A program made the translations under genes and the position numbers. A stretch of DNA of 50,271 nucleotides from Candidatus Omnitrophota bacterium (GTDB lineage: Bacteria; Omnitrophota; Gorgyraeia; 1-14-0-20-64-10): the NCBI GenBank assembly GCA_023818695.1, contig JAMWCF010000004.1, positions 1 to 50,271 of the forward strand, given 5' to 3'. Shown one piece after another: positions 3,001-28,452 of this stretch (its first letter is position 1; every line of letters begins with the position of its first letter). Under the pieces are notes generated by a model. It was not told the origin of the DNA. It made no database searches and saw nothing but the letters and a program-made list of their open reading frames with translations.

Positions 3001-6000
3001 TACTGTCCCAGGGAAGAGGCCACGCCGTCCTGCACCGTTCCCAGGTAGGTCGAACCGCCGTCTGTCGAGTATTTGATGTCGATGTTCCCCATTGAGGCCC
3101 CGACGCGGGTCCAGGTGATCTGCTCCGTGGTCCCCATCTTCCAGTTGTTCGGGTAGGGGGCGGTGGCAGGGTAGGTGAGGGTCAGTTTCTGAATCTTGAA
3201 GGAGCCGGAGACCCCTGCCACGCCGCCGGCAGACGGGTCACTGTCATCCGGATCGGACACTTTGATTTTGCAGGTCTCCGAGGTCTGATCTGTAACCGGC
3301 CAGTCGAAGAAGCTCACCGTGTCCGGGTTCAGCCCCGTGGTGATGGAAATCGGGTAATCGTTGCCGGCGCCGCCGTTGGTCTTGGAGAGGTCGATATTCA
3401 AGTTGCCGTACGTCGCCTGGGTGACGCCGGCGACAGTCCAGCTGATCCTCTTGGTCGATCCGACAAGCCATGTCTCCCCGGCGATGGGAGCGTCGACCAC
3501 GATGTCTCCCTTGATCTTGAAGATGCCGGACTCCCCGTAAACGTTGGCCGGATCGGAACCGACGCCGGTCTCTTCCACTCGAACCTTCACGTTGTTGCTC
3601 ACCGAAGGGGGCGTATCCCAGCTCAAGGAGCCCTGGTCGGCATCCACGCTGGCGCCGCCAGGCACCTCGGTCCAGGTGCCGCCGTTTATGCTGTAAAGAA
3701 TCTTGACCTGGTCCAGGGCGGCGGCCGGGTCCACCACCCAGGTGATTGGATAAACGGTATCAACCCGCCGGATATCGTTGGTCACCGGGGAGGTGACGGT
3801 GATGGAGGGAACGATTTCAAAGGTTTCATCCTGGCCCACCAGGTCGGGGCCGGTGTCCATGTTGTCATGGTCGACCGTTTCCCAGATCCGTATTTTCCCC
3901 GCCGTGGTGGGGGTCGTGCCGGCCGGGATCAGCCAGGCGTAGGTCCTGTTGGCTGCTGTGCCGGCGTCATAATCGGTGACGATCGCCGGATCGACCCAGG
4001 AAACACCGGTGGTCCGGGAGTAATAGATGTCGACGTTGCCAACCTGCCCGTCTACCGTCCAATCGATGTTGTAGGCCTTCCCCGTGGCCCACACATCGGT
4101 GACAGCCGGCGAGGTGATGGTGATCGTCGGACGGATCTCAAAATCGCCATTCGATGCATCTTGGACGGTGTCCACCGTCAACCCGGACCCTTCGTGCTTG
4201 ACCCGGATCCTCATCGTCTCGCCGGTGTAGTCAGGCGCAATGGTCCAGCTCTTGGTGCCCGCCGTGCCGCTGACGCCGGTGAAGAGGGCCGTTCCCAACC
4301 AGCTCGAGCCGCTGTCGATGGAAAGCTCGATCTTGACGGTACCGATGTTGCCGGTGTGGTTCCACTCGATATCGTGGGTGGTGCCGACGTTCCAAATCTC
4401 GCTGCCGTTCGGGGCCGTCACCGTGACCGACCCTAGGATCACGAATGGGCCGTTGGAGACATCGAAGTTCCGACTACTGGTGGAGATGCTGGGGTCTGAG
4501 ATCTTGATCTTGCAGTTGCTGGAGATGATGCTGTCGTTGCCGCTGCCCATGGTGGCCGGGATGTTCCAGGCGTATTGCCCGGCGTCGGCCTGAATGTTCG
4601 CGGTGGTGTCCACAATCATGTAGGGGAAGGTCGAACCGCCGTCTGTGGAGAGCTCAATCCGAATGTTGTCGTCCTTGATATTGTGAGCCCAGTTCCAGGT
4701 GATCATGTGGGTGCCAGCCCCCGGCTGGTCGATCGCCCATATCTCAACGTCGTCCACCTCCTGGAAAATGCCGTCTCCGTCCAGGTCCCCGTTGGGGCCG
4801 GTGATATTCAGCGGGGGGAACTCCCCGACCCAATAGCTGGTGGTAACTGTCGACGTCGCCGCAGTTTCGCGAGTCAATACCAAGCTTTGCGCGCCGGAGA
4901 GCTGCCCTCTGACCATGATCTCATCCAGGCCGTTCTGGTCACTCGTGTTGCCCGCCGTAGAGATAAAAGCGAAAGAACGGTTAAGATCAATGGTGTTCCC
5001 CAAACTGATGGTCGATGCCGTCCCGGTAAAGGAGCCCGTCCCTTTTTGCGAAAAAACCTCGTTTTTGAACTCCAGGAGCTGCCAAACGACGTTTGTCGCA
5101 TTGGTGGTGCCGTACCGGGTGAATGTCAGATTATTCACCGTGTTTCCTGTGCCGGTCATGGTGGCATAGACGCTGTACCGGTTCTCGCGGCCGGCGGCGG
5201 AGGAGGTCGGCCGCCTCTGGACAAAAAGCATCGATTTGTCCCCCTTCACAGCGTTGTAGCCGCCGCTGGTCAAGCTCACCGAGGCTTGGGTGGCACCGTT
5301 GGCGATCTGCGTCACCCCCTGCTGGATGTCCACATCGGTGTCGAACTCGATCACCTGGTAAGAGATATCGTTGTTATAGGTGGAAGTGGCCTCGCCTCTC
5401 TCAATCAGCAGAGACTGGGTGGTTGGCTCCGCCCCGGTCAGGCGGGCCGCGTATTGGTTGAACTCGTCGCCGGTTGTGCTGTTGGCCAGCGATTTCCAGC
5501 TGATGATCGGGAAGGAGCGGTCCAGCACGACGGAGGATGGCAGGGTGATCGTCTTGGAGGTGGTTGTCTCCGAAAAGACGCTGAACCCCGTTATCACATT
5601 GACCCCGGAATCAAACTCCACCACCATCCAATCGATGGTTATCGCCACCGAGGACACCTGTCGCGCAAATTGGATAGCGGTGGGGTCATCGATCATAGCC
5701 ATGACGTCCTGCCTTCTTCGGTCATTATCGTTGCAGGAAGCGGTGGCGATGATGAACGTCTTGTTGAGATCCAGATTGACCCCTCCCAACTGGCCCGACA
5801 AGCTCACGACCAGGTTTTCCTGGGAAGTACTCATCGTGGTGGTCCCGCGCAGGACCCTCTTGATCTGGAAGGCGGCCGCCTTCGGCGCGTCAATCCCCTC
5901 CAGGAGCGCTTTCAGAGGCCGGGGGGCGGAAGGTGGAATCGGCAGGGGGACACCAATCACCGCCATCATCAGGACCAGCAGGTGGACAAGCGTCTTGAAC

Positions 6001-6017
6001 CAGAGGGTCCCTTTCAT
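1..6017 (-). CDS. Giant secreted repeat protein, C-terminus beyond window edge; N-terminal beta-rich modules followed by about 15 Kre9/KNH- (Ig-like) repeats
   Basis: Reverse-strand frame from ATG at 6017 (MKGTLWFKTLVHLLVLMMAVIGVPLP...) is not interrupted by any listed ORF in that frame and reads coherently to the left edge. Repeats every ~300-315 bp match 'W..G....I.W...G.....V.L.YS.DGG..W..I......Y.W.VP.....KI.V.D......SD..F.I', e.g. GTTHDIEWNHTGNIGTVKIELSIDSGSSWLG. Confidence 0.88.
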   Translation of the reverse strand, partial: MKGTLWFKTLVHLLVLMMAVIGVPLPIPPSAPRPLKALLEGIDAPKAAAFQIKRVLRGTTTMSTSQENLVVSLSGQLGGVNLDLNKTFIIATASCNDNDRRRQDVMAMIDDPTAIQFARQVSSVAITIDWMVVEFDSGVNVITGFSVFSETTTSKTITLPSSVVLDRSFPIISWKSLANSTTGDEFNQYAARLTGAEPTTQSLLIERGEATSTYNNDISYQVIEFDTDVDIQQGVTQIANGATQASVSLTSGGYNAVKGDKSMLFVQRRPTSSAAGRENRYSVYATMTGTGNTVNNLTFTRYGTTNATNVVWQLLEFKNEVFSQKGTGSFTGTASTISLGNTIDLNRSFAFISTAGNTSDQNGLDEIMVRGQLSGAQSLVLTRETAATSTVTTSYWVGEFPPLNITGPNGDLDGDGIFQEVDDVEIWAIDQPGAGTHMITWNWAHNIKDDNIRIELSTDGGSTFPYMIVDTTANIQADAGQYAWNIPATMGSGNDSIISSNCKIKISDPSISTSSRNFDVSNGPFVILGSVTVTAPNGSEIWNVGTTHDIEWNHTGNIGTVKIELSIDSGSSWLGTALFTGVSGTAGTKSWTIAPDYTGETMRIRVKHEGSGLTVDTVQDASNGDFEIRPTITITSPAVTDVWATGKAYNIDWTVDGQVGNVDIYYSRTTGVSWVDPAIVTDYDAGTAANRTYAWLIPAGTTPTTAGKIRIWETVDHDNMDTGPDLVGQDETFEIVPSITVTSPVTNDIRRVDTVYPITWVVDPAAALDQVKILYSINGGTWTEVPGGASVDADQGSLSWDTPPSVSNNVKVRVEETGVGSDPANVYGESGIFKIKGDIVVDAPIAGETWLVGSTKRISWTVAGVTQATYGNLNIDLSKTNGGAGNDYPISITTGLNPDTVSFFDWPVTDQTSETCKIKVSDPDDSDPSAGGVAGVSGSFKIQKLTLTYPATAPYPNNWKMGTTEQITWTRVGASMGNIDIKYSTDGGSTYLGTVQDGVASSLGQYDWLIPGNAISTEQNTQMKIKLRLSADPSQGVVSTDPFTMVSRLVILVPSDGTQVWSAGTSQNISWTTDGPVSTVKLYYSTDGGSTYPGVIESTAITNSSPYLWTIPAAAIDTDVKVKIQTGTDAYAGNIFDVSDNIFEVKPAFNTITSPAFGEIWNVGDTSKSITWTTTGAITNVKIEYKTSAAGSYTTIVSNFDNSSGGNTYPWSAGVADENSDDCYIRLTDVNKPATQLISSQFKIRPVITVTQPAAGADLTVGSQSAAIRWSRTGTKITNVDLAYSVNGGTFVTIESGVANASGTTYTWPAPYVPDQITQNAVVRVTDATPVTGNPNVYGNSGVFHIVGGIDLQSPVGGEYWGVSPKNRNITYQTTGSITSVKIYYSSNSGSTYSLVTTKSHAVPGTYSHVWTEMPDAVTQTARVKVTDANSEGYALVIQDASTDFHLVGVFDILQPENGHTVTAESTYSINWDPGTATGISNVILQYSTDGGSTWSYVNGTNPYTVPNSGSYYWNPTPAVISNQLKVRVYDPAYNPSTGITVNTGSGLAKLEGDLTLTSPTLGTESWDVGSTYNITWTKKGDFATAGHTVKIQYAPDGSSTTPTYTTIAGAEALAAADLSFPWYISEAIQTSNQAKIKIVDNQDSTVNDDSDAVFTVKGQVVLTAPNADNIELHVGEPYSITWTKYGNLSGLNIFYSTNSGSTFPNQLNGSAVNPADLSFPWPGGVPDQILGKVMKVKIVDTGNPNVNDVSEYSFEISGKLALGAPTGSEDWEVGTAGNIKWTPTGTWSQVELLYSLNGGSDWTSIDTVAAGVSGVEQTYNNWAPAPNHITSQFKIRVRDPNYPNTVVATSTTNNRILGRLQVNIPSGAGIIWNEGVTKQITWTGTGNVEPVNLYYSTDGGSNWTLIGQATVGGPAGQNIVNSGNGPQSYDWVVADVKTETAKIKVEDPDYPSVVWDASDNNFAIRPVVTVDLYPNPNADLPVSSSGHTIRITTTSPSTVTNVKL

Positions 6018-6424
6018 GGCGCGGTCTGCTCCCTGGAGCTGTAGGCCCCTTTCAACGTCTGCTTGACGAGACCAATCTGAACGGCGGCTGTTTTCGTGAC
6101 GATCCGGGTCCCCTCCCGGTCGAGCCGGTAAGCCTGCTTGTACTTCACCTCGACGGTGTCTCCCCGCTGCAGTTCGGCCAAAGACTTCAGGGGGGATTTC
6201 AGCTTCGTTTCACTCGTGATGGGAATCAGCATCTCCTCCGCCTGGCCCTTGGACCTGGAAAACTCGACGCTGATCGACCGCTTGCCAACATGGACCAGCT
6301 GGCCGATGACCTCCCGCAGATCGGTCTTCTCATCTTCTACGGCGAATTCAGCTCGCGCGCCGACCGGACAGGACAAGGCCGACAGAAGAACGAAAGCAAG
6401 CAGAAAGACGGTCGGTATTCTCAT
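6014..6424 (-). CDS. Small secreted protein (signal peptide plus OB/SH3-like beta domain), function unknown
   Basis: 136 aa, MRIPTVFLLAFVLLSALSCPVGARA signal; beta-rich body (GQLVHVGKRSISVEFSRSKGQAEEMLIPITSETKL...GDTVEVKYK). Stop overlaps next start (ATGA) and start overlaps upstream stop (TGATG). Confidence 0.8.
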   Translation of the reverse strand: MRIPTVFLLAFVLLSALSCPVGARAEFAVEDEKTDLREVIGQLVHVGKRSISVEFSRSKGQAEEMLIPITSETKLKSPLKSLAELQRGDTVEVKYKQAYRLDREGTRIVTKTAAVQIGLVKQTLKGAYSSREQTAP

Positions 6425-7746
6425 CAGAGCGTCCTCCGGGGGCTGTCAGACGGCTGGACCCCGATGAAAACGAAATCCTGCGGCGGCCCCTCTTTCGGGT
6501 GCCGGCTGCAGATCCCTCTCATCTCGCCGCCCCGCAGCTCCCCTCTCCAGAAGACAACCTCCTCCTTGGGCCCTTCCTGCATCGTCTCCCATCGCAGGGT
6601 GCCGTCCGCGTGAAGCACGGAGGTGTAATTGGACCCTTCAAACCCCCGGCCGGAAAGGTGCGAAGAAACCATGGTTCTGCCGTCAAAACGCAGGGTATCC
6701 ATCTCCAGCTCCGGATTCCCGGAGGCGTACATCGGCTTCATCTGAATTTCCCAGCGGGTGCCGGCCAGCTCCGGCGAAGAAACGAAAGAGGCGGAGCGGA
6801 CTTCCGGATTCGATGACACGGCGATCTCCTGCCGAGCAATCGCCGGCCCCTTTGAGATGCGCGGCTCCCCGCCGCCGACCGAGGCGGTCTTTTGCGCCGG
6901 CTGCGGTGCGGGAAGGCCCACCCCGGGACCGACGTTCACCAGACCGGCGGTATTCAGCGAAATCCAGGCGGTCAACACAAGCGCCACGCTGGCCATCGTG
7001 AGGGAAAAACGCTTGTCCAGATCTTTCTCAAGGGCGGTCAACGCGACAACCGGTCCTCCGGGCGTTGACGCTTTCGCGGCCTCCGGAGAGGGAAGATCCT
7101 GCGCTTGTTCCCGGACGGAATCCACGAAAGCGGCCGGGCCAACCACCGGTCTGCTCAAAAGCTTTTCCCGGCGGAGCCACTCCTGCTCCGGGATCGAAAC
7201 CAGGTAATCTTCATAGGTCATGCCGGAATGGGCGGACTGCATGTGATACAGCAGCTCCCCGGCTTCAGCGGAGAGGTCCAAATGGGAGAGAATCCCCTTG
7301 CCCTCCTCCAGATAGCTTGGCAGACTGCTGAACCGGTAAGAGGAAGGCCTCTCGGCCAGCCCCTTTCGGACAGGCAAAGCATGGATGTAATCGACCAGCG
7401 CGGAAAGGGAGCTTTTCTTCTCCACCACAGACGCCTTGTACCTCCCCTTGAAGAGATGGCCGGTGAAATCGTGGCGTTTGCGGAACAGCTTGGTGTAGCG
7501 GGAATTCAAGGCATGCATCAGATCGGAGACGGTGGTGCCGCGGGCCACCTCCAGAACAAGGTGGATCTGGTCCGGAAGCAGGAGATAGCCGTACAGCTTG
7601 AAGTCGTACTGGCCGCGGTAGCCATCCAGAAGTTCCTGGAAGGTCCGGAAATCGGCTTCATCCTTGAAGAGGAAGCCGTGGGCCCCTGCCTGACAGGTCA
7701 CGTAATAGAGAACCCCTTCCATATGGATCCGCAGGGGTCTAGGCAT
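6424..7746 (-). CDS. RAYT/IS200-like Y1 transposase-domain protein fused to a TM segment and a C-terminal exported-type domain
   Basis: MPRPLRIHMEGVLYYVTCQAG...LLLPDQIHLVLEV...RYTKLFRKRHDFTGHLFKGRYKASVVEKKSSLSALVDYIHALPVRKGLA is RAYT-like; TM segment FSLTMASVALVLTAWISLNTAGLV; C-terminus GTRWEIQMKPM...FWRGELRGGEMRGICSRH. Listed ORF start 7932 rejected because the extension translates the palindromic repeats; ATG at 7746 preferred. Confidence 0.85.
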   Translation of the reverse strand: MPRPLRIHMEGVLYYVTCQAGAHGFLFKDEADFRTFQELLDGYRGQYDFKLYGYLLLPDQIHLVLEVARGTTVSDLMHALNSRYTKLFRKRHDFTGHLFKGRYKASVVEKKSSLSALVDYIHALPVRKGLAERPSSYRFSSLPSYLEEGKGILSHLDLSAEAGELLYHMQSAHSGMTYEDYLVSIPEQEWLRREKLLSRPVVGPAAFVDSVREQAQDLPSPEAAKASTPGGPVVALTALEKDLDKRFSLTMASVALVLTAWISLNTAGLVNVGPGVGLPAPQPAQKTASVGGGEPRISKGPAIARQEIAVSSNPEVRSASFVSSPELAGTRWEIQMKPMYASGNPELEMDTLRFDGRTMVSSHLSGRGFEGSNYTSVLHADGTLRWETMQEGPKEEVVFWRGELRGGEMRGICSRHPKEGPPQDFVFIGVQPSDSPRRTL

Positions 7747-7808
7747 GGGGGATCCCCCCCTCGGACAGGGAAACCGGCTGGCGGGAGTAGGAGCGGATGA
7801 GCGGCCCG

Positions 7809-7863
7809 GGTGCCTGGCACCGGCGCTCGGGTGCCCAGCACCTGCCCAGGAGTGCCTGGCACT
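7809..7863. repeat. Three near-palindromic 13-mers (GGTGCCTGGCACC / GGTGCCCAGCACC / AGTGCCTGGCACT) at exact 21-bp spacing; REP-like
   Basis: Copies at 7809-7821, 7830-7842 and 7851-7863, each separated by an 8-bp spacer, directly upstream of the RAYT-domain gene. Confidence 0.85.
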
Positions 7864-7871
7864 TGAGCACG

Positions 7872-7900
7872 AAAACAAAAAAAAGAGCGGCTTCCACCGC
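7872..7900 (-). terminator. Possible intrinsic terminator between riboswitch and RAYT-domain gene (expression platform)
   Basis: Minus strand GCGG-TGGAAG-CCGC stem-loop followed by TCTTTTTTTTGTTTT. Stem is only 4 bp. Confidence 0.45.
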
Positions 7901-7972
7901 ACGATCGATCGCTTTGGCCGCCTGCCGGCCAAGGCGCTTCACCCAATTGTGCCCTTCTTCTGTTTTCGTCAT

Positions 7973-17102: not shown

Positions 17103-20100
17103 CTACTGGGATTCGGTCTGGCCGGCGGCGGAAGAAACGGAAAGAGGAACCGGCCTGGCTGAAAGGAAATCCCCCTGGCGGATCGAAAGGCGGTTCTCCA
17201 TTTTCCTGGTGATATAGGCCATCGCCAAACCACTCTGATCGATGTCGCCCAGCTCGACCTCCACCACCTCTTTGCCTCCGGCGCTCAAGCGCATCGCCGA
17301 CCCGGCCTTCGCCCACTCAACATTCTCGACGGAGAGAACCAGGAATCCGAGTTTATCCTCCACGCGATAGACCTTGACCGGAGAAACCGGTCCCTCGGCG
17401 AGGGCGGGTGGCGGTTCCTGCGGCTGGAGCGCAGCCGTTTCCGTGCCAGCCGACGGCCGACTGATGGAGGGGATGGGGGCCGACGGCGGTTCCTGTTCGA
17501 TCGGACGCCTTAACTCCTCGCGCAATCGCTTCAAATCCCGCTCCTTTTCATCCAGCTGTTCCGTTAGGGTCCTGATCCGGTCTTCGTAACCGCTTTTCAC
17601 GGTGTCCCTTTCCTGCAGACTCTGCTGGTAGGCGGCCTGCGCTGTCTGAAGATCTTTCTGGAGCCGATCCAATTCCAGCCGGATGGAACGCTCCTCGGTC
17701 AGGAACTGGTCCTCTCTCCCCTGGGCCTGGATCCGGTACCTCTGGGTCTCGGACTGGGCGTCGGCCAACTCCTTCCGGAGCGCCGTCCTTTCGGACTGCA
17801 TCCTGTCCAGCTGCTCATCCCGTTCTCCCAGCGTCAGCTTGAGGGTGTCCCTCTCCTGCTCCAGCAGACCGATCTGGTCCCGAAGACGACCGGCCTCTTC
17901 CCGGAGCCCACGGAGTTCATTGAGCTGTTCGGATTGGACCCTCTGGCTGATCCTCAACTGTTCCTGGATATCGGCCAAAGTCTGCTGCGTGCTGGTGTAA
18001 TCGGACTTCACCTGCGAAGATGCGGATTTCAGGTCGGCCAGAGAGGAGGTCAGCCGCCGGAGTTCCTCCTCTTTCGCTTCAAGTGTCTGCTTGAGGCGGT
18101 CATTTTCCGTTACCAGCGCGGCCTGCTGCCTCTCCAGGCGCCGGATCTCTTCCTGCTGACCGGCTATCTTCTGCTGGGCATCCGTCGAGAATTTCGAAAG
18201 ATCCGTCGCCTCCCGCTGAAGGGTCTGCTGCAGCTCTTCCAAATGCTGAATCCTCTCCTGCAAATCGGACACATGGGCCTGCGAGGCCTCCAACCGGACC
18301 TCCTGCCTCTCCCGGCTCTGGCTCAATTCGGTATTCAGCTGCCGAACATGGGAAAGAGCCTCCGACAGCTTCAAACGCTCGCTCTTCAACTGCGCCAGTT
18401 GCTGCTGGGCCTGGTCAAGCGCGGTGCTTCGATACGCGGCCTCCTCCTGCTGCGCCTGGATCTTCATCTGGGCCGCTGCCAACCCCTTCTGCGCTTCCAC
18501 CATCTGGGCTTGGATCTTATCGGCCGCCTCCTGCTGCGCCTTCACCTGTTTCTCCAGAAAATCCGCTCTCTGAAGCAGCGTGCCTCTTTCCTCGGATAGG
18601 GCTTCTATCTCCTTCTGCGCGGCCCGGATCGCTTCTTCTCTCGATTGAAGGGTCCCCTTTAACTCATCCAACGTTTTCTGGAGTTCGGCCTCCCGCTGGT
18701 TCAGGCGGACGTTGTTGTCCCGCTCTTGCGCCAGCTGTTTTTCCATCTGGGCAAGGGCGCTGCGCCCCGCCTCAAGCTGGGCGCTTTTTGCCTGCAGCGA
18801 CTCCGTCAGCACCGCTCCCTCCTTCTTCGCCTGGGAAAGCTCCTGGACAATCTCCTTGATCCGGCTGTCCAGCTGGCTCTTCTCCTTCTGCGCCCCTTTT
18901 AGGGAGTTCTCCAACTGGGCGATCTTCCTGGCTGCCTGGGTCGCCTCATCCTCCAACCGGGATTTCATGTTCCGGAAATCATCCAAAGATCTGGAAAGAT
19001 CCCCCTGCGTCTCCTGAAGCTGCTGCTGTAGCTTGGCCTCCTTCTTGGACGCTTCCTCCAAACGGCGGACCAGGGAACCACGCTCTTCCTGGACGCGCTG
19101 AATCTGCTCCTTCAGGCCGACGATGAGATCATGCTGCTCTTCCCTGGCCTTGCCCAGCTCACCAGCCAGCTTCTGGAGCCGATCCAGCTCCTTGGCCTGA
19201 AGGGAGCGCTCCTGCGCCATCAAGGCCAGATCATTCTCGAGAACCGCCGTCGCCTCCTTCTGCTTGCGGCGCTCTTCCCGCTCCGTCTGCAACTGCTGGT
19301 TGGCGGCGGCGAGCTCTTTCGACAGGCGTTCCGCGGTCCTGCCGGCGTTTTCCACCTCCTGTTTCAGCTTCAGCACCGATTCTTCCGACAGCCCGAGCGT
19401 TTTCCTCATCTGGGCAAGATCGGCTTCACGCTGGGCGAGCTCTTTCCGAAGCTGCTCGACCGCCTTCTTCCCCTCCTGGTCCGACTGGGACAGACGGCGG
19501 ATCTCTTCTGACTTCGCCCGGATCTCTTTCTGGTCGATTCTCCCCTGTTCCTCCAGCGCATTCGAAGAGGCGGCAAGAGCCGATAACTCCTTGCGCGCCG
19601 AAGCCAGCTCCGCCTCCATCTGCTGCCGCGTCCTCTTCAAATCGGCATACTCCCGGCGCAGGTTTTCCAACTCGGCGGAAAGAGCCCTGACCTTTTCCTG
19701 TTCCTCTCGCACAGTGGCTTCCAAACGGGCTTCGGACGCTTCCTTGGCTTGCCTGGCCTCTTGAAGTTCTTTGTCGGTCTTCTGAAGCCGCTCCTCCAAA
19801 CGGGAGGCCTGTGTCGAAGCCGCTTCCAGCTCCTTCTCCAGCGCCGCCTTTCTATCCTGGAGCCCCAACACCTCCTTTTTCAGATCGGCCAGAACAAGCT
19901 GCTGCTCTGCCCGCTCCGCCCGAAGATCGTCGTTGAACTGCCTCTGTTTGGCCAGTTCGGCCTCCCGCATTTTCAGATCCTCCGTCAAAACAGCCGCCCG
20001 CCTTTCGAGCTGATCGATGGAAGTGGTGAGATCCCGGTTCCTCTTTTCACTGCTGCGAAGGGATTCCTGCGCGGAACCGAGCTGCTTGCCTAGAACCTGC

Positions 20101-21938
20101 GATGTCTCCCTGAACCGCATTGCCTCTTTTTCCAAAGAGGCGATCCTTTCACTGGCCTTCTTCAGCTCTCCCTGCACACCCGCCAAAAGGGCTTCCTTCT
20201 CCTGCCACTCTTTCTGCAAGTCGGCCAGCTCTTGCTCGACCTCCTCCAAGCGGCCGCGCAGCGTGGACTCCCGCTGGCGGCTTTCCGCCAGTTGCTGCGA
20301 AAGCTCCCTCTCCTTCCGGCGAACCACCTCCAGCTCCTTTTCAAGCTCACCCTGCGTCTCGCGCTTGGATTTCTGAAGTTCCGCAAACGCAATTTCCTTC
20401 TCTCTCAAAGTCGACTGGGTCTCTTTCAGACCCGCTCGCGCGCTCTCCAGCTCTTTTTCCAAGCTGGCTTTACCCGCATCCAACCTTTCAACCTGCCTCT
20501 GAAGAGCCGCCAACTCCGCCCGTTGCTTCTCCCCCTCCCTCGTCAACTCCATGGAAAGGGACTGGAGCCGCTTCAACTCCTCCTCCCTGATTCTTCCCGC
20601 TTCTTCAGCGGCTGCCAGTTTCGTCTCCAGACCGCCTATCCTCTGCTGAAGATCCTTGTTCTGCTTCTGCTCTCTCCACAGCTCATCCCGGGCGGCGCGC
20701 AGGGTCTCGGAAAAGGATTTTGACTCCTCCCTCAACCGGGCGACCGTCTGATCCAGCGTCGCGGAACCCCCTTCCAGATCCTTTAATTCCCGCTCAAGCA
20801 GACCAATCCGGTCCTCCTTTTCCTTCAACTGCTTTTGGAGCGAAGCAACCTGCTTTGTCAGCAATTCCTGGGATGAAACCGCCTGCCTTATCTGATTCGC
20901 CTTCTCCTGCAGCTCTTTCTGAACCGCAGCGTGCTCTTTCCGAAGTTTTTCATACTCCTGATCCCGCTTGGCGAACGATTCCTTTTCCGCGCGCGATCCT
21001 TCCAGGGCGACCGACAACCGCTGTTTCTCCGATTCCGCCGATGCCAACCGCTCCTTCAGATCCAGCTCTGATTTCCGGACGGCTTCCAGCTCACCCGTGA
21101 GAGACCCGATCCTCCTCTGAAGGTCCTGTAGCGCGGCATCATGATCGGATTTGGCCTTCAGGAGATCACCCTGTTCCCGCTGGGCGGCCGCAGCCATCTT
21201 CCGGGAGGCGTCCAGCTCCTGGTTCAAACGAGCGATCTCAAGGCGCAGCGGCTGGGCCGTCTGTTCGGTCTGCGCTCCCGCTGCCCTCGACAAATCCATC
21301 TGTCGGTTCAGGGAAATCAGCTGTTCCTTCAGCTCCTCCTGCGAACGGCGAAGCCGCCGGATCTCTTCCTCCTTCTGTCCGAGCAGAAGCTCCATATCCG
21401 ACGCCGGCGCGGGAGCCGACTCGGACCGGACAGCCGGCTCCCGCGCCGGCGGTTCCGCAGCGGAATCACCCAAAGCAGCGGCGAGGCGGTAAAAATCCAG
21501 GAAAACCTTCTCCCCGGAAAGATTCTGGAAAATCTGGTCCAGAAGAACCGGGAAATCCCCCGCCAACGGGTGTCCCTCGAACTTATCCTCGGCAATCCCC
21601 AGCAAGGGGATGGCCCATCTTCTGGCGTAATTCACCTCTTCGTCGGGGCCGTAATAGTGGACCCGGCTGACCGACGGCTGCTCGGCAAGCTGGATCAGCG
21701 CGGAGGTGAGGGAGCCGTCATCGATCAGAATCCGGGGAAAGAGATTCGCCGCCCTCTGCGCGGCCGGATAGCGGGACAGCGCCGTCTGGCTCACGACGAC
21801 CCACACCCCGGGCTGGGGATTCAGTCCCTCTCTGGCCTGGTCGATAATCTCCTCCTGCGCCCTTGAAAAGGGAACAGGCCCGCACACCGCCATGCTGAAA
21901 ACGACGGTAAAAATAAAAAGCTTGAAGCTGACTTTCAT
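17103..21938 (-). CDS. Giant exported coiled-coil protein (1611 aa)
   Basis: Signal MKVSFKLFIFTVVFSMAVCGPVPFSRAQ; N-terminal globular part; roughly 1200 aa of E/K/Q/L/R heptads; C-terminal small domain VEDKLGFLVLSVENVEWAKAGSAMRL. Confidence 0.92.
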   Translation of the reverse strand: MKVSFKLFIFTVVFSMAVCGPVPFSRAQEEIIDQAREGLNPQPGVWVVVSQTALSRYPAAQRAANLFPRILIDDGSLTSALIQLAEQPSVSRVHYYGPDEEVNYARRWAIPLLGIAEDKFEGHPLAGDFPVLLDQIFQNLSGEKVFLDFYRLAAALGDSAAEPPAREPAVRSESAPAPASDMELLLGQKEEEIRRLRRSQEELKEQLISLNRQMDLSRAAGAQTEQTAQPLRLEIARLNQELDASRKMAAAAQREQGDLLKAKSDHDAALQDLQRRIGSLTGELEAVRKSELDLKERLASAESEKQRLSVALEGSRAEKESFAKRDQEYEKLRKEHAAVQKELQEKANQIRQAVSSQELLTKQVASLQKQLKEKEDRIGLLERELKDLEGGSATLDQTVARLREESKSFSETLRAARDELWREQKQNKDLQQRIGGLETKLAAAEEAGRIREEELKRLQSLSMELTREGEKQRAELAALQRQVERLDAGKASLEKELESARAGLKETQSTLREKEIAFAELQKSKRETQGELEKELEVVRRKERELSQQLAESRQRESTLRGRLEEVEQELADLQKEWQEKEALLAGVQGELKKASERIASLEKEAMRFRETSQVLGKQLGSAQESLRSSEKRNRDLTTSIDQLERRAAVLTEDLKMREAELAKQRQFNDDLRAERAEQQLVLADLKKEVLGLQDRKAALEKELEAASTQASRLEERLQKTDKELQEARQAKEASEARLEATVREEQEKVRALSAELENLRREYADLKRTRQQMEAELASARKELSALAASSNALEEQGRIDQKEIRAKSEEIRRLSQSDQEGKKAVEQLRKELAQREADLAQMRKTLGLSEESVLKLKQEVENAGRTAERLSKELAAANQQLQTEREERRKQKEATAVLENDLALMAQERSLQAKELDRLQKLAGELGKAREEQHDLIVGLKEQIQRVQEERGSLVRRLEEASKKEAKLQQQLQETQGDLSRSLDDFRNMKSRLEDEATQAARKIAQLENSLKGAQKEKSQLDSRIKEIVQELSQAKKEGAVLTESLQAKSAQLEAGRSALAQMEKQLAQERDNNVRLNQREAELQKTLDELKGTLQSREEAIRAAQKEIEALSEERGTLLQRADFLEKQVKAQQEAADKIQAQMVEAQKGLAAAQMKIQAQQEEAAYRSTALDQAQQQLAQLKSERLKLSEALSHVRQLNTELSQSRERQEVRLEASQAHVSDLQERIQHLEELQQTLQREATDLSKFSTDAQQKIAGQQEEIRRLERQQAALVTENDRLKQTLEAKEEELRRLTSSLADLKSASSQVKSDYTSTQQTLADIQEQLRISQRVQSEQLNELRGLREEAGRLRDQIGLLEQERDTLKLTLGERDEQLDRMQSERTALRKELADAQSETQRYRIQAQGREDQFLTEERSIRLELDRLQKDLQTAQAAYQQSLQERDTVKSGYEDRIRTLTEQLDEKERDLKRLREELRRPIEQEPPSAPIPSISRPSAGTETAALQPQEPPPALAEGPVSPVKVYRVEDKLGFLVLSVENVEWAKAGSAMRLSAGGKEVVEVELGDIDQSGLAMAYITRKMENRLSIRQGDFLSARPVPLSVSSAAGQTESQ

Positions 21939-22972
21939 TGTTCTCTCCTGGCACGCTGGGCGTTTAGTTGTTCCGACAAATCGAGGGCAAGCACGAGATC
22001 GGCTATCCGGTTGTTGGCGGCCGCCAGCTCATTCTTCATCCGAGCATACTCATCCTGGCGCTGCTGAAGCTCCCGAGCCAGCTGTTCTTTGGCGTTCACC
22101 GCCTCCTGAAGCTCCCGCTGGAGATGCTCCAACCGCTGCTGGGACTCCGTCTTGAGATCCGCCATCTGGCGCTCCAGCTTATTCATCCCGGATCGCGCGC
22201 TCTTGGCGCTTCGTTCAAAGTGGTTGCGCTCCTCCTCCAGTTTCTCCATTTTGGCTTCCAGGAAATCGAGCCGGTCCTGCAGTTTCTCCTTCTGCCGGAC
22301 GACCGGCTCCGCCTGCCGCCGGGCCTGCTGGACAGCTCTCTCCAAGCTCTTTTTCTCCGACTCCAAACGGCGATTCTCGACATCCAAGGAGGCTACTCGC
22401 TCTTTCAGGCCGGTTATTTCGTTCTGCGCCTCCTGCAAAGAAAGCTCCACCCTGGCCAACTGGCGATTCTTCTCATTCAGGGCCTGGCGTTCCGCTTTCA
22501 ATTCCGCCTGCAGCCCCTTTTGGAACCTCTCGATCCCATCCATACCGCTCTGGATCGCCTGAAGCCGGGCGGTCCGTTCCTGCAACATTCGGATCAATTC
22601 TTCGGGGCTCTTTTTGCCCAACTGGACCGGATCCAGATTGACCGCGCCCGGCCGAACATCCATGCTGGAAAGCTCCAAGCGCGTCCGTTCCAGGTCGCTT
22701 TTCACACGGGCCAGCTCCTGCCGCTGGCCCGCCAACTCCTGCTTCGTCTCTTCCAGCTCCTTTTCGAGATGGTCCCGGCGCTCCTGGACCTTGGCCAGCT
22801 CCTCGCGGATTCCTTTGACCTGCCGCATTTGAGAGGCCAAGGCCTGACGGTCTTGAAGACGGCTCTTTACCGCTTCCGAACGGGAAATTATTTTCCAGGC
22901 GACGCTGGTGAGCAGGACGGCGGCGATGGCGATCAAAAGGTACTTACCCCACAGCCCCCGGGGCTTGGTCAT
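21935..22972 (-). CDS. Membrane-anchored coiled-coil protein
   Basis: MTKPRGLWGKYLLIAIAAVLLTSVAWKII TM anchor then long coiled coil. ATG at 22972 preferred over the listed TTG start at 23008. ATGA overlap with the 1611-aa gene. Confidence 0.85.
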   Translation of the reverse strand: MTKPRGLWGKYLLIAIAAVLLTSVAWKIISRSEAVKSRLQDRQALASQMRQVKGIREELAKVQERRDHLEKELEETKQELAGQRQELARVKSDLERTRLELSSMDVRPGAVNLDPVQLGKKSPEELIRMLQERTARLQAIQSGMDGIERFQKGLQAELKAERQALNEKNRQLARVELSLQEAQNEITGLKERVASLDVENRRLESEKKSLERAVQQARRQAEPVVRQKEKLQDRLDFLEAKMEKLEEERNHFERSAKSARSGMNKLERQMADLKTESQQRLEHLQRELQEAVNAKEQLARELQQRQDEYARMKNELAAANNRIADLVLALDLSEQLNAQRARREQ

Positions 22973-23014
22973 GGACCCTTCCTGTCCCCTCTGTTTTTCT
23001 TCAGGCAAGGATTA

Positions 23015-23291
23015 GAGCCCCTTTCACAACCTGGCGTGAGCCGGGTTGCGTGCGCCAGGCGGCCAGATCCAAGGAACGACGACGAAGGCGTACTCCCTGG
23101 AGCACGTCGAGGAGGAGTGACGCCGGAGATGGCCGCCTGCCGCCGCAACCCGAAGGGCTGGGTTGAAATGCATCGCATCGCTTCGTCGCTCGTCGTCGCC
23201 GTATCTTGGTTCCATGATACGTCTCCTCCTCGCTCCTCGCGCTGCTCGCATTTGAGCCCAGCGCGGCCACGCGAGGTTGTGAAAGGGGCTC
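23015..23291. mobile_element. MITE-like element, ~277 bp, ~24-27 bp terminal inverted repeats, 3-bp TTA target duplication
   Basis: Left TTAGAGCCCCTTTCACAACCTGGCGTG (23012-23038); right CACGCGAGGTTGTGAAAGGGGCTCTTA (23268-23294), inverted with 2 mismatches in 27. Interior also contains inverted arms (GGGTTGCG..CAGGCGGCCA / TGGCCGCCTG..CGCAACCC) and no plausible transposase. Confidence 0.85.
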
Positions 23292-23924
23292 TTATTTTTT
23301 CTTCGTTTTCTTGGTTGTTGCGGCCGGCTTCTCCGGTTGAGCGGCCGGCGGGGATGTCGGCTGCGCCTGCTGCGAGACAGACGTCTCCTCGGCAGGCGGC
23401 TGCGCCGGCGTTTCCGTGGCCGGAGGCGGTTCAGGGGGGGCAGCCGGCTTGAGCCGCCCGGAGAAGGACCAGTCGGTCACTGTGCCGCTGGCATCATGCT
23501 GACTCAAGATGCCGCTCATGGTTTCTCCAAAGAGCTGTCCCTGCCAGAAAACCACGTCTCCCCCCTCCGAAGCGCTCTGCATCGTCTCCCAGACGGGCAC
23601 CCCGCCCTTGATCGAAATGCTGAAATTGGTCGGTTCGTATCCCTTCTTCCCGAACCATTCGGAGCTGATTTTTCCCTTTTCGAAACGGAGGATGTCCGCA
23701 ACGGCCTTTTCCTTTTTGTCGCTCATGGGGGCCAGTTGAATTTCCCACTGGGTGCCGTTCAGGGCTTCGCGGGCCTTCTTCTCCGCTTCCAGGGCCAGCT
23801 CTTCCGGGGTTTTCTGCGGCTTCGCCGTCGTCGGCGCGGGTTTCTTGGCGCTCCAGCCATCCGAAGCCCACAGAAAAACCGCGAGAAAACCGGCCAACCA
23901 CACGAAGGACTTTCTATTCGTCAT
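23292..23924 (-). CDS. Secreted protein with linker-rich C-terminus; shares its central domain with the RAYT fusion
   Basis: Start 23924 after GAGAGAAG: MTNRKSFVWLAGFLAVFLWASDGWSA signal; domain GTQWEIQLAPMSDKKEKAVADILRFEKGKISSEWFGKKGYEPTNFSISIKGGVPVWETMQ...DVVFWQGQLFGETMSGILSQHD. Stop codon lies in the TTA target site of the MITE. Confidence 0.82.
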   Translation of the reverse strand: MTNRKSFVWLAGFLAVFLWASDGWSAKKPAPTTAKPQKTPEELALEAEKKAREALNGTQWEIQLAPMSDKKEKAVADILRFEKGKISSEWFGKKGYEPTNFSISIKGGVPVWETMQSASEGGDVVFWQGQLFGETMSGILSQHDASGTVTDWSFSGRLKPAAPPEPPPATETPAQPPAEETSVSQQAQPTSPPAAQPEKPAATTKKTKKK

Positions 23925-23947
23925 CTTCTCTCTCCGATCTGTCCCGA

Positions 23948-25099
23948 TCATTCTACCAGTTTCTTTTCTGTCTCCAAAGTTTCCCATGACGCGATGTATT
24001 TTCTCACCCAGGAAGCGTCCTGCGCGTGAGGCTTCAACTGAAGGTACTTCCGAAAAAACTGGACCGCTTTTTCGGTATCCGGAATATACTCGGCATAAAT
24101 GACGCCGATGTTGTAATAAGCATCGGCGTCATCGGGCCTGATCTCAACGACCTTCTTGAATTCTTTCAGCGACTTGCCGTACTGTTTCTGCTCCGTCAGC
24201 AAAACGCCCAGGTTGTAATGCATGTCGGCCGTTTCCTTCACCAGCCGCTCATGCTGGCGGGCCAGCTTCGTCACTTCCGAGGGGACCCTGTTTGCCCTCC
24301 TCTCCAGCTCTTCGCTCTCGGCGACGAGGGCGATATAATCTTTTTCGAGCTTCTTGAGCCGGTCCATCAACTTCTGCAGCTGCGCTCTGCCTTTCTCCTC
24401 TTTGTCCGAGACCTCGCGCAGCGCTTTCTCGGCCGCCTTCAGTTCCCTTTCATTTTCCGCTAGCTCTTTTTCCCGCTCAAGCAGTTCCTTCTTCAGCTGC
24501 TGCTCCTTCGCCCCTTTCTGTGCGAGAGTCAGCTGGCGCTGGACCGCATCCCGCTGGGCCGTCAGCTTCTCGTTCATCTCCTTCAGGGAGGCCATCTGGC
24601 TCTCCAGCGGTTCCCTCTGTCCCAACAAGAGTCTGTTTTCGCGAGTCAGCCGCTTGATCACGGCATTCAGGCGCTGTCTTTCCCCCGCCAGAAGCTGGCG
24701 GTCCCCCTGCAGCCCTCTCAACTGCGACGCCAGACTGTCCCGCTCCTCGATCAAAACCTGTTTTGCCTGGTCCCACACCGCCTGTTCCCGCTGCAGCCGG
24801 GCATGCTCTTTCTCCAGATCCGCGTATTTCCGACTCAAGCTGTTGTAATCCTGCTGGAGCAGCTCCCATTGGTGGCCCAGAGAAGCGTACTGCTCCGAGA
24901 GGATCCTCTTGCGCTCTTTGGTCTGGGCCAGCTGGGTGGAGAGATCACCGTTGAGATAAAACAAGACGAAGACCACGCTGATCCACACCAGCGTCCCGGT
25001 CAGGTAAATGATCCTTCTCTTCCAGCTGAACGGCGCGGGAGCGCTTCTGGGCGAAAAGGACGCCGGCTGCGGCGGGGGAGTGGGTATCTCTGTCGTCAA
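23948..25099 (-). CDS. TM-anchored coiled-coil protein with C-terminal TPRs
   Basis: RRIIYLTGTLVWISVVFVLFYLNGDLSTQ TM, coiled coil, then MHYNLGVLLTEQKQYGKSLKEFKKVVEIRPDDADAYYNIGVIYAEY TPRs. Confidence 0.88.
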   Translation of the reverse strand: MTTEIPTPPPQPASFSPRSAPAPFSWKRRIIYLTGTLVWISVVFVLFYLNGDLSTQLAQTKERKRILSEQYASLGHQWELLQQDYNSLSRKYADLEKEHARLQREQAVWDQAKQVLIEERDSLASQLRGLQGDRQLLAGERQRLNAVIKRLTRENRLLLGQREPLESQMASLKEMNEKLTAQRDAVQRQLTLAQKGAKEQQLKKELLEREKELAENERELKAAEKALREVSDKEEKGRAQLQKLMDRLKKLEKDYIALVAESEELERRANRVPSEVTKLARQHERLVKETADMHYNLGVLLTEQKQYGKSLKEFKKVVEIRPDDADAYYNIGVIYAEYIPDTEKAVQFFRKYLQLKPHAQDASWVRKYIASWETLETEKKLVE

Positions 25100-25100
25100 T

Positions 25101-26828
25101 TCAGGACCGTTCCCTCATGCTTTTCCGGAGCCGGAATCTGGGCGGTGACGGCTCTTCTTCCCGCGGTTTTTCCTCCAGCTCTTCGAGGCGGGGATCATCC
25201 TCCCTGATCGGATTATAATCCCGGAAGGACTTGAAAGCCCCGGTCTTCTCGTCCCCGGAAACGAACTCATCCCCGCTGACGATGTGGGGCGTGATGAAAA
25301 CGACGAGCTCCTGGCGAGAATTGTCCCTGTCCCTCTGGCGGAAGAACTCTCCGAATAGCGGAATGCGGCCGAAAAGCGGGACCTGGTCGTTCTCGTATTT
25401 TTTCGTGTCCTGGGCCAATCCCCCCAGAACAACCGTCGTACCATCCTTGACCATCACAAGCGTCTCCGCGGTGGAGGTGCTGACGATCGGGATCTGGTTG
25501 CCAATGGGAGTCGTAAGGGTCCTAACCACGCTGCTGACCTCCGGCTTGATTTTCATGGTGATGTATCCGTCGGAATTGATCGACGGCGTGACGGAAAGCT
25601 GGGTCCCCACATCGATGAACTGCACCTGCTCGGCGGTCGTGCTCGTGGACTGTCCGGTGGTGGTGGTCGTGGTCACGTAGGCCTCCCTCGTCCCCACGAG
25701 GATCTTGGCCTCCTGGTTGTGCACCACGAGCACCCTCGGGGTCGCCACCAGCTTTGTCTGCCCCAGGGTTTCCAGATAGCGTAGCAGCTCGTAGCCGTCG
25801 TTATTCAGGAGGCCCAACGCCAGCTTCCCCCATTTGTTGCCCAGCGGAACCTGGGCGACGGAGGCGGCCGTGGTGGTGGAGGTCTGGCGGAAGTCCGCCA
25901 CTTTGTCGACCCCATGGAACTTGATGTTCCTGAAAACGGCGTCCCAGTCGATGCCGCTGTCCAGATTGTCCGTGAGGTTCACCTGGATGATCTTGGCGTC
26001 GATCAGAACCTCCCGCGTCTTCCGATCCAGCAGGGCGATCATCCTCTCCACATCCTTCATCCGGTCAGGCAGTGTTTTGACGATCAGCTGGTTGCTGCGT
26101 TCGTCCGCCTTGACGAACCCGAGCTTCCGGAGCTCCAGATGGTCCTTCAACCGCTCCTCTATCTGCTTGGCGTTAGCGTACCGAAGATCGAAAACACGGA
26201 TCGTCGCCTGCTTCTCAAGGGTCTCCAACGCGCTCTCGATCCGCTGAAGAGCGGCCGGCGTGTCCATGATGACCACCGTGGCGGAATCCTCATCGACGAG
26301 CAGGCGGCCGATTTCGCTCTTCAGCGCGTCCAGCATGTTGAAAGCCGCCTCCGGCGCGGCGTATTTCAGTCGGAACGTCTGAACCTGCCTCAAGTCCGAG
26401 TATTTCTTTCCGTTGAGGACCTTGTACTCCTCCTCGGACATCACGTGGTAGATGTTCCCCTGCCTCATGTAAGCCAACCCGTTGCTGCGCAGAATCAGCT
26501 CAAACACATCCCGGATCGGCACGTCCGTCAAAGAAAGGGTGACCCGGCCGGTCACCGTCTTGGTCGTCGCCAGGTTGAACCCACCTTTCAGGGCCAGATA
26601 TTTCAGAGCGTCCACGACATCGGTGGATTTGAAATCAAGGGAAACCGGCTCCTCCATGCCCCGGGAAGGTATGGCCGCCGCTTCAGGCGTCACGGCGGCG
26701 AATTGCTGACTCTCCTCTTGAGCGAGAGCCGGAGAAGGGTGCGCGGCGAGGGACGCGAGTAAAAAGGAAAAGGCGGCGACTCCGGCCTTCGCTGTTTTTT
26801 CAATACGACAGACGGATCTCTTTGCCAT
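25101..26828 (-). CDS. Secretin (GspD/PilQ family outer-membrane pore)
   Basis: Signal peptide, STN-like VSLDFKSTDVVDALKYLALKGGFNLATTKTVTGRVTLSLTDVPIRDVFELIL, N-domains, and secretin core LVATPRVLVVHNQEAKILVGTREAYVTT...QLSVTPSINSDGYITMKIKPEVSS...VVLGGLAQDTKK...VPLFGRIPLFGEFFRQRDRDNSRQELVVFITPHIV. Start at MAKRS inferred. Confidence 0.95.
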   Translation of the reverse strand: MAKRSVCRIEKTAKAGVAAFSFLLASLAAHPSPALAQEESQQFAAVTPEAAAIPSRGMEEPVSLDFKSTDVVDALKYLALKGGFNLATTKTVTGRVTLSLTDVPIRDVFELILRSNGLAYMRQGNIYHVMSEEEYKVLNGKKYSDLRQVQTFRLKYAAPEAAFNMLDALKSEIGRLLVDEDSATVVIMDTPAALQRIESALETLEKQATIRVFDLRYANAKQIEERLKDHLELRKLGFVKADERSNQLIVKTLPDRMKDVERMIALLDRKTREVLIDAKIIQVNLTDNLDSGIDWDAVFRNIKFHGVDKVADFRQTSTTTAASVAQVPLGNKWGKLALGLLNNDGYELLRYLETLGQTKLVATPRVLVVHNQEAKILVGTREAYVTTTTTTGQSTSTTAEQVQFIDVGTQLSVTPSINSDGYITMKIKPEVSSVVRTLTTPIGNQIPIVSTSTAETLVMVKDGTTVVLGGLAQDTKKYENDQVPLFGRIPLFGEFFRQRDRDNSRQELVVFITPHIVSGDEFVSGDEKTGAFKSFRDYNPIREDDPRLEELEEKPREEEPSPPRFRLRKSMRERS

Positions 26829-27453
26829 CGCGCTCCAGGACAACACCGTGTGCCGTCACCTCTTTGACCATCATCCCATTGACCTCCTCTCCGACTCCCA
26901 CAAAATAGGTCCTGCCCCCCTTCGCGTCCTCGATGAGGGCGCGGGGAGTCCCCGACCGGTCTATGCCCACCACGGTCAATCCATCCGCCAGATTCTCGAC
27001 CTGCGGCGACGCGGTTGCGCGGACGTCGGGGATTTTCTTTACCGTCGTCTCAAACGGCGTACGAACGTCCGCGGAACCGATGTAAACGGAGACCGGCCGC
27101 ATGTAATCCTCCGGCTTTTCCGACGTCTGCCCGCCCGGCGCGCGGATGTCGATCGTTTCGTTCAGAGGCGCCTTCTTCCCGGTTTCATAGGGAGCCATAA
27201 CGTCCCTGACGACATAAACGCCCAGAGCCAGCAGAACGATCCATAACAGACGGCTGCTCAAGCGGATCCGCTCCAGGAATTCATCCTCGGACCGCCGTCT
27301 CCTGAAAGAGGACCCTCTTCTCCCGAACCGGGCAAAGATCCCCAGCCATCCCTCCTTGGAACTGGAAAAGGAGAGAGCGGCCGACCGGATGCCGGACGGG
27401 TCTTCGATCAGCTTCAGCAAACGCTCTTCTGCAGTGCTTCTGTCGGCGACCAT
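26800..27453 (-). CDS. Single-TM protein with periplasmic GspC/PilP-like domain
   Basis: TM SSRLLWIVLLALGVYVVRDV and C-terminal LTVVGIDRSGTPRALIEDAKGGRTYFVGVGEEVNGMMVKEVTAHGVVLERDGKEIRLSY, resembling GspC HR/PilP beta domains; overlaps secretin and ATPase genes. Confidence 0.75.
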   Translation of the reverse strand: MVADRSTAEERLLKLIEDPSGIRSAALSFSSSKEGWLGIFARFGRRGSSFRRRRSEDEFLERIRLSSRLLWIVLLALGVYVVRDVMAPYETGKKAPLNETIDIRAPGGQTSEKPEDYMRPVSVYIGSADVRTPFETTVKKIPDVRATASPQVENLADGLTVVGIDRSGTPRALIEDAKGGRTYFVGVGEEVNGMMVKEVTAHGVVLERDGKEIRLSY

Positions 27454-28277
27454 CCCGCTTCAATATCCTCCTGAAGGACGTTATCCACCAATTCCCGGTC
27501 CACCACGGACCGGTTATACATCACCAACCCCCGAAGGGCCCTGTGGCAGAGCATGGCAATTTTCCTCGGATAGCCGGAGGAGGCCCGATAAATGGCGTGG
27601 ATCGCTTCATCCAAAAAGAGGGGGGAAGGGAAATGGTACCCGGCCTCATACAGCCGGAATTCCACCATCTCGCGGGTCTCTTCGAAGGTGAGCGGGGTCA
27701 GCATTGATTTCATGCTGATCCTGTCGACCACGTTGGGCATGCTCTTTAAGAGGGGCAGCAACTCCATTTGGCCCAGCAAGACCAGCTGGAGAAGTTTTGT
27801 CTCGTTGGTCTCATAGTTGAGCAGAACCCGCAGCGCCTCCAGGGAAAGAGGATTCAGCTTATGGGCCTCATCAATGATCAGGACGACCGTTTTGTGCTCC
27901 TCCACCCCTTTGCGGAAAAGAAACCGTTCCAGCCCTTCCCTGTAATCCAAAAGGGTGGGACGGACGGCCGCCGTCTCAATGCCGAAGGAGCGGATGAGGG
28001 CTTGATAAAACTGCTCCTCCGACGGGAAGGTGGGATCCAGCATCATGTGGAAGATGAAGCCCTCCCTTTCGCTCAACATCTGAATCAACTTCCGGCCCAA
28101 GGTGGTTTTGCCCACCCCCACATCCCCTATGACGACGCTCAAACCCCGCTTGAGGCGGAATTCAATGACCAGGTTGGCCAGTGTCGCCCGGTGCCGCTGG
28201 GACTGGTAGAAAAAGAGCGGATCGGGACTGGTGGAAAAAGGTTCCCGATCGAGTCCCAGAACCTGAAAGTAGCTCAT
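27414..28277 (-). CDS. ExeA/GspA-like AAA ATPase
   Basis: MSYFQVLGLDREPFSTSPDPLFFYQS..., Walker A GDVGVGKTT, Walker B VVLIIDEAHKL, SSGYPRKIAMLCHRAL. Confidence 0.92.
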   Translation of the reverse strand: MSYFQVLGLDREPFSTSPDPLFFYQSQRHRATLANLVIEFRLKRGLSVVIGDVGVGKTTLGRKLIQMLSEREGFIFHMMLDPTFPSEEQFYQALIRSFGIETAAVRPTLLDYREGLERFLFRKGVEEHKTVVLIIDEAHKLNPLSLEALRVLLNYETNETKLLQLVLLGQMELLPLLKSMPNVVDRISMKSMLTPLTFEETREMVEFRLYEAGYHFPSPLFLDEAIHAIYRASSGYPRKIAMLCHRALRGLVMYNRSVVDRELVDNVLQEDIEAGWSPTEALQKSVC

Positions 28278-28423
28278 CGAGGCGAGAAACTCCCTGCAGA
28301 GAGCTGGCTTGACTGCCCGGAGTTTTTAGTCTCTGATCCTGTGCCCATACCCTTTCGCCGGTTCCTGGATGTCGGGGAGCCAGTCACCCAGCGGTGGTAT
28401 TGCTCTCTCGTCGAGTTTCACTC

Positions 28424-28452
28424 AGCATAATATCGCCACGCACGGCTGTCAA
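28424..28452 (-). promoter_or_regulatory. Putative sigma70-like promoter of the secretin/coiled-coil operon
   Basis: TTGACA (28452-28447), 17-bp spacer, TATGCT (28429-28424), about 145 nt upstream of the ExeA-like start. Confidence 0.6.

Follow-up and report, generated by a model that had tools for sequence, protein, structure and literature searches.

Members of Candidatus Omnitrophota are uncultured, tiny and widespread, and predation or parasitism is suspected for them. The window analyzed here (50,271 nt, the entire contig C1 of a 937 kb assembly that is 61% complete) carries a secretin operon on the minus strand at 17103-28277, and the question is whether this operon encodes an apparatus that works without a type IV filament motor, as the initial annotation proposed, or one part of a larger secretion machine.

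The seven-gene operon and its coiled-coil proteins

The operon consists of seven open reading frames (ORFs), all on the minus strand and with ends that mostly overlap or nearly touch. The gene set proposed initially, from an ExeA-like ATPase to a 1611-aa coiled coil, was recovered from the ORFs and Pfam matches. The first gene encodes an ExeA-like AAA+ ATPase of 287 aa in the GspA/MshM position (27414..28277, minus strand, as are all window features below; Pfam AAA_22, 2.4e-22), with 47-58% identity to the counterpart gene in relatives. It has no TM segment and, by Pfam, no peptidoglycan-binding domain, and thus lacks the C-terminal periplasmic part of ExeA/GspA. An XrtA/PEP-CTERM system was dropped as a candidate because this ATPase scored below the cut-off of TIGR03015 (167.6 vs 324.5 bits). 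Next are a GspC-like (GspC/PilP-like) inner-membrane protein (26800..27453; 217 aa) with one TM segment and a C-terminal HR domain at residues ~159-216, and a secretin of the GspD/PilQ type (25101..26846; 581 aa; Pfam Secretin 2.6e-48, two Secretin_N domains, and STN). The fourth protein (23948..25099; 383 aa), in a MshN/TadD-like position, is a TM-anchored coiled coil with C-terminal TPRs (TPR_1, 3e-11) and is referred to here as CCTPR. The fifth (23292..23987; 231 aa) is a secreted protein with a domain of ~105 aa, referred to as Nov, which is a predicted beta barrel. Upstream of the operon, a DUF4954 protein with hexapeptide-like repeats is encoded at 31182-33182, and a 2694-aa ORF at 42029-50113 has no Pfam match at E 0.01.

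Two coiled-coil proteins complete the operon. The TM-anchored coiled coil (21935..23008; 357 aa, or 345 aa from an internal ATG) has ~275 coiled-coil residues, and a similar gene occupies the equivalent position in the related locus L042 (26% over 230 aa). The giant coiled coil (17103..21938; 1611 aa) has a signal peptide and is free of proline at residues 231-1478. The protein has 1229 heptad-periodic residues, compared with a mean of 232 and a maximum of 501 in 200 shuffles, and its coiled coil is not a product of chance. Pfam matches of the coiled coils to ATG16 and SMC were taken as composition, not homology. Residues 231-1478, if fully helical, would extend ~185 nm, and this long coiled coil could serve as a spacer, as a scaffold in the periplasm, or as a fibre. 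Among loci, the long coiled coils range from about 370 to 2670 aa and also vary widely in sequence; because of this range in length, the conserved feature is the protein class and not one sequence. The 2670-aa protein (L063:940-8952, plus strand) has a C-terminus that by eye resembles the TonB C-terminal domain. A proline-free coil of 1250 residues is long enough for a fibre, which agrees with the apparatus proposed initially, a periplasm-spanning or surface fibre machine made of the ExeA-like ATPase, the GspC-like protein, the secretin, and the coiled coils, without GspE/F or a pseudopilus.

Relation of the secretin genes to type II secretion

In the related locus L050, the homologous ExeA-GspC-secretin triad ends a complete type II secretion system (T2SS) operon in the order GspE-F-G-J-K-PilM/N-PilO-ExeA-GspC-GspD, where PilM/N is GspL and PilO is GspM, and the same triad order was found in many other loci. 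The window GspC-like protein matched Pfam T2SSC weakly (0.0055). Its AlphaFold model has a C-terminal beta domain with pLDDT ~90, for which the best PDB match in Foldseek is GspC of the GspC-GspD complex (3oss_C; TMt 0.77, rmsd 1.5, E 1.8e-3), and the fold also matches the HR domains of LspC and PulC. As modeled, the protein carries the HR-domain fold of a T2SS GspC, which argues against a stand-alone apparatus.

The secretin also points to a T2SS type. The nearest solved chains are T2SS protein D (6i1x, 2e-38), and the N-domains and the C-terminal secretin domain of T2SS secretins are both present. The score against the curated GspD model TIGR02517 was 258 bits, below the cut-off of 351, and a secretin from the same phylum that belongs to a complete T2SS operon likewise fell below it (255 bits). 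In a quick FastTree phylogeny, read with FastTree’s own branch support only, the secretins of Nov-containing modules formed one clade (also holding a few loci without Nov or with cut context) nested among CCTPR-type secretins, which were sister to ordinary T2SS secretins, with pilus secretins outside.

The gene set also resembles the MSH locus (PMC6668835). An MSHA-like type IVa pilus would have the ExeA-like ATPase as MshM, the GspC-like protein as MshK, the secretin as MshL, and the TPR protein as MshN, with a motor supplied by a histidine-kinase (HK)-linked E/F/pilin/PilMNO cluster found in other Omnitrophota genomes. Against this assignment, the window secretin scored 176.6 bits with the MshL model TIGR02519, short of the cut-off of 250.2.

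Conservation of the module and its downstream genes

The Nov protein had no match in Pfam, NCBIfam, or PHROGs, and a phage origin of Nov was dropped because of the lack of a PHROGs match. The domain was modeled by AlphaFold with pLDDT ~97 and has distant fold matches to lipocalin/avidin/nitrobindin-like barrels (E 3.6e-4 to 0.07, low TM), which are too weak for a ligand to be assigned. Nov occurs in 46 of the 246 class genomes, and the named relatives of the domain are nearly all from Candidatus Omnitrophota MAGs, with one from Ratteibacteria.

Co-conservation of the secretin, a check suggested initially, was borne out for CCTPR and Nov and often for a long coiled coil. Secretin and CCTPR accompany Nov in 19 of the 20 Nov loci fetched (L121-L140), and in the exception, L130, the Nov gene lies at a contig end. 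A separate search gave the exception L086, which has CCTPR, Nov, and a 1252-aa coiled coil but no adjoining secretin, and the further exceptions L080, L089, and L090, which are short contigs. When the comparison was limited to non-redundant triads followed by five or more genes, CCTPR came directly after the secretin in 23 of the 24 triads with Nov; it also follows the secretin in some T2SS-like loci. A further long coiled coil is present in 13 of these 24 Nov-type triads vs 1 of the 25 other triads (p = 1e-4), and the order ExeA-GspC-secretin-CCTPR-Nov is repeated over many families within one secretin clade. Tandem secretin-CCTPR duplicates occur in several lineages. In one family, a gene for an HD-type phosphohydrolase lies inside the module (L078:9511-10662, L065:2848-3981, L066:7699-8802); the L078 copy matches Pfam HD_5, and the module there has tandem secretin-CCTPR duplicates.

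The repeated gene order and the enrichment of long coiled coils argue against an ordinary T2SS secretin locus to which the coiled coils, Nov, and the giant proteins are unrelated neighbors. Such a locus would agree with the variation in coiled-coil length and sequence and with the ExeA-GspC-GspD order that is usual for T2SS in Omnitrophota, and we regard it as very improbable. The upstream context is closer to the expectation for a stand-alone apparatus, as same-strand copies of at least two of GspE/F/L/M were seen among the upstream ORFs read for none of the 24 Nov-type triads, compared with 14 of the 25 others.

Downstream, many loci encode a Y1-Nov fusion, a protein of 136-154 aa, and then a giant Ig-repeat protein, as does the window from 7932 to 3. 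The fusion (6424..7932) joins an IS200-like Y1 domain (RAYT-type; Pfam Y1_Tnp, 1.5e-10) to a Nov match. A 14-row alignment shows that the HUH histidine pair survives in part of the rows; the window copy is among those that have lost it. Fusions are also found at L044:13668-15110, L063:9916-11322, L122:5450-6880, and other loci, where they adjoin the giant gene, and the two parts are joined mostly via a TM segment. The fusion is possibly an exapted transposase turned into a membrane-bound DNA-binding regulator. The small secreted or anchored protein (6014..6424; 136 aa) lies between the fusion and the giant gene, and a small protein is found at the equivalent position in the relatives L044, L121, L122, L123, L130, L133, and L136. 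The giant Ig-repeat surface protein (3..6017; 2005+ aa, cut by the contig end) has Kre9_KNH and Reelin-type repeats and begins with a hydrophobic signal-like segment, and homologous giants are found at the equivalent position in relatives.

The motor locus and its linkage to the module

The initial annotation also pointed to the absence of a motor from the window. This observation stands in that no T2SSE ATPase was found on contig C1 and no GspF or prepilins were found among the window ORFs examined. It says little about the machine, because the window is the whole contig and its left end interrupts the giant Ig-repeat gene; when a contig breaks within a repeat gene, a motor that is in fact normal can seem to be missing. 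The full-genome secretin search that had been suggested detected two further secretins, each in a separate pilus-type operon with its own motor genes, and a search of the contigs of the same genome with the window GspC-like protein gave no match.

A further GspE-GspF pair is located on contig C2 of this genome, with no secretin nearby and none listed on C2. At the left end of C2, a 1844-aa ORF open to the contig start has the same Ig repeats as the window giant. It is followed by ATP synthase b-delta, alpha, gamma, and beta, GspE, and GspF, and then by GspG (157 bits with the equivalog model, cut-off 88.85), GspK, PilM/N (GspL), and PilO (GspM), so that all of GspE, F, G, K, L, and M are present on this contig. 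The F-ATPase loci of genomes G137, G244, and G050 are likewise preceded by the C-terminus of a giant protein. The simplest reading of these sequences is that C1 and C2 are probably neighbors broken inside a repetitive giant gene, although no sequence connects the contigs and each giant ORF could belong to a gene of its own. The initial annotation named a standard T4P/T2SS cluster elsewhere in the genome as a possible home of the secretin, and this probably applies in a modified form, with a C2 core that lacks GspD and has matching giant repeats.

The F-ATPase-linked GspE has a C-terminal PilZ domain (e.g., L202:9435-11609, minus strand, and relatives), which suggests control by c-di-GMP. On the same locus, from G137, one ORF (L202:4644-5405, minus strand) encodes a GspG-type pseudopilin behind a response-regulator receiver (Response_reg + T2SSG). 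With a positive set that we drew ourselves from full-length matches (open frame from ~700 aa upward, score of 830 bits or higher), PilZ-type F-ATPase-linked GspE was found in 39 of the 246 genomes, comprising 26 of the 46 genomes with Nov and 13 of the 200 without it. The co-occurrence was strong (Fisher 1.5e-13; CMH by family 2.6e-13, with strata that leave some shared ancestry). In five genomes from five families (G137, G079, G131, G140, and G238), the module precedes the F-ATPase on a shared contig and strand, the gaps in the first four being judged from coordinates only. In the 26 Nov-positive genomes that have the F-type GspE, the 15 kb on either side of this gene yielded no secretin, although some contigs are short; the nearest were a weak partial one at ~16 kb in G189 and one at ~21 kb in G190. 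Only two secretins each were detected in G046, G127, and G204, and one of the two is the Nov secretin. The other 20 Nov-positive genomes have no PilZ-type GspE; among them, the F-ATPase adjoins GspE in G000, G077, G097, G115, G140, and G216, lies on the contig of the module in G238, and was not seen in others (e.g., G129 and G142).

A stand-alone apparatus would fit the Nov-positive genomes without an F-ATPase. Against it, the module co-occurs strongly, and is linked in a fixed order, with a T2SS core that has no secretin, and we consider it unlikely. The claim of an apparatus without a type IV filament motor is not supported, in view of the T2SS triad in L050, the GspC fold, and the GspD-less core on C2.

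The second, HK-linked GspE clade was not significantly associated with Nov (Fisher p 0.11, CMH p 0.13) and was rejected as a general partner on the latter value. In G140 and G133, an HK-linked pilus-type E/F/pilin cluster does precede the module farther upstream in the same orientation, and in G025 and G143 the 20 kb read for such a cluster contained no secretin; both points favor an MSHA-like pilus. The pilins beside the F-ATPase-linked GspE, however, are of GspG/J/K type, and GspE of the HK-linked clade was not found in the 61% complete genome of the window. An MSHA-like pilus is accordingly a rather improbable reading.

The operon is probably the outer-membrane (A-C-D) half of a split T2SS-like machine, with a motor half beyond the contig end and the giant protein as the object served, although a T2SS does not include Nov, the coiled coils, or the giant protein. 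The motor half would consist of GspE, GspF, the pseudopilin GspG, GspK, GspL, and GspM, encoded behind the giant gene and beside a non-respiratory F1-type ATPase. ExeA and CCTPR would help to insert and hold the secretin, and an assembly or anchoring role of CCTPR is plausible by analogy with the TPR proteins of Tad and MSH. By analogy with solved T2SS complexes, the GspC HR domain would dock on secretin N0 and link the secretin to the GspL/M/F platform. A GspE-driven GspG/GspK pseudopilus, perhaps with the F1-like ATPase, would then drive the giant protein out of the pore and onto the cell surface, where it would meet prey or host cells; the long coiled coil may be exported too. Two features make the giant Ig-repeat protein the leading candidate for the substrate or for a product displayed on the surface: its gene is placed between the two halves, and its sequence opens with a hydrophobic, signal-like segment. 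The sequences directly show the gene content and its conservation, the GspC fold match, the co-occurrence across genomes, the linkage in five relatives, and the lack of a secretin near the F-ATPase-linked machine, whereas the contig join, the substrate, what the coiled coils do, and what the machine is for are inferred. More tentatively, and with some doubt, the whole could be an Omnitrophota-specific predation or attachment organelle, derived from a T2SS and equipped with an F1-type rotary ATPase of its own and a c-di-GMP-sensing GspE, that extrudes or anchors an Ig-repeat adhesin of 3,800+ aa, with coiled coils of 100-300 nm as a spacer or fibre through the dedicated secretin and the Nov barrel as a periplasmic adaptor.

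Comparison with known systems

The module is apparently an undescribed, conserved extension of a T2SS-like machine and is probably not motor-less. It shares with the T2SS the secretin type, the GspC HR fold, and the ExeA-like ATPase, and complete operons with the same triad exist in other Omnitrophota. It differs from the T2SS in that the window module is split from GspE-M and adds CCTPR, Nov, giant coiled coils, and a giant Ig-repeat protein, and in that the motor locus is linked to an F1-type ATPase, with a GspE that often has PilZ.

As in mshK-L-M-N of the MSHA pilus, an ExeA-like ATPase, a PilP/GspC-like protein, a secretin, and a TM-TPR protein occur together; mshL and mshM are obligatory members of the MSH locus, whose MshN is homologous to TadD (PMC6668835). 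In contrast to MSHA, no mshA, mshE, or mshG is present in the window and no MSHA-type E/G/A cluster was found in its own genome, the linkage statistics favor an F-ATPase-linked GspG-type machine, and the HK-linked cluster adjoins the module only in the two genomes named above. In the Tad secretin-pilotin pair RcpA-TadD, a TPR protein also aids the secretin (PMC10499894, PMC6668835), whereas the TPR protein described here is TM-anchored with a long coiled coil, and no TadA/B/C were seen in the locus.

Beyond Seymour et al. (2023), searches of open-access literature found nothing on Omnitrophota secretins and no description of the combination of module, F-ATPase, and giant gene. In the accessible portions of that paper (PMC10066038), F-ATPase/T4aP loci and giant ORFs are reported as separate signs of predation or parasitism, and the secretin module, Nov, and GspG/K-type pseudopilins are not mentioned. 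The loci described in those portions resemble the present ones in having an F-ATPase beside type IV filament genes and in the giant surface ORFs; they differ in that the pilus is treated as a T4aP and not tied to a secretin-Nov-coiled-coil module and the F-ATPase is not tied to the giant ORFs (PMC10066038). The reading proposed here would join these two features, reported separately in the portions available, and one secretin module with one T2SS-like machine across many families would provide concrete genes for how Omnitrophota act on other cells.
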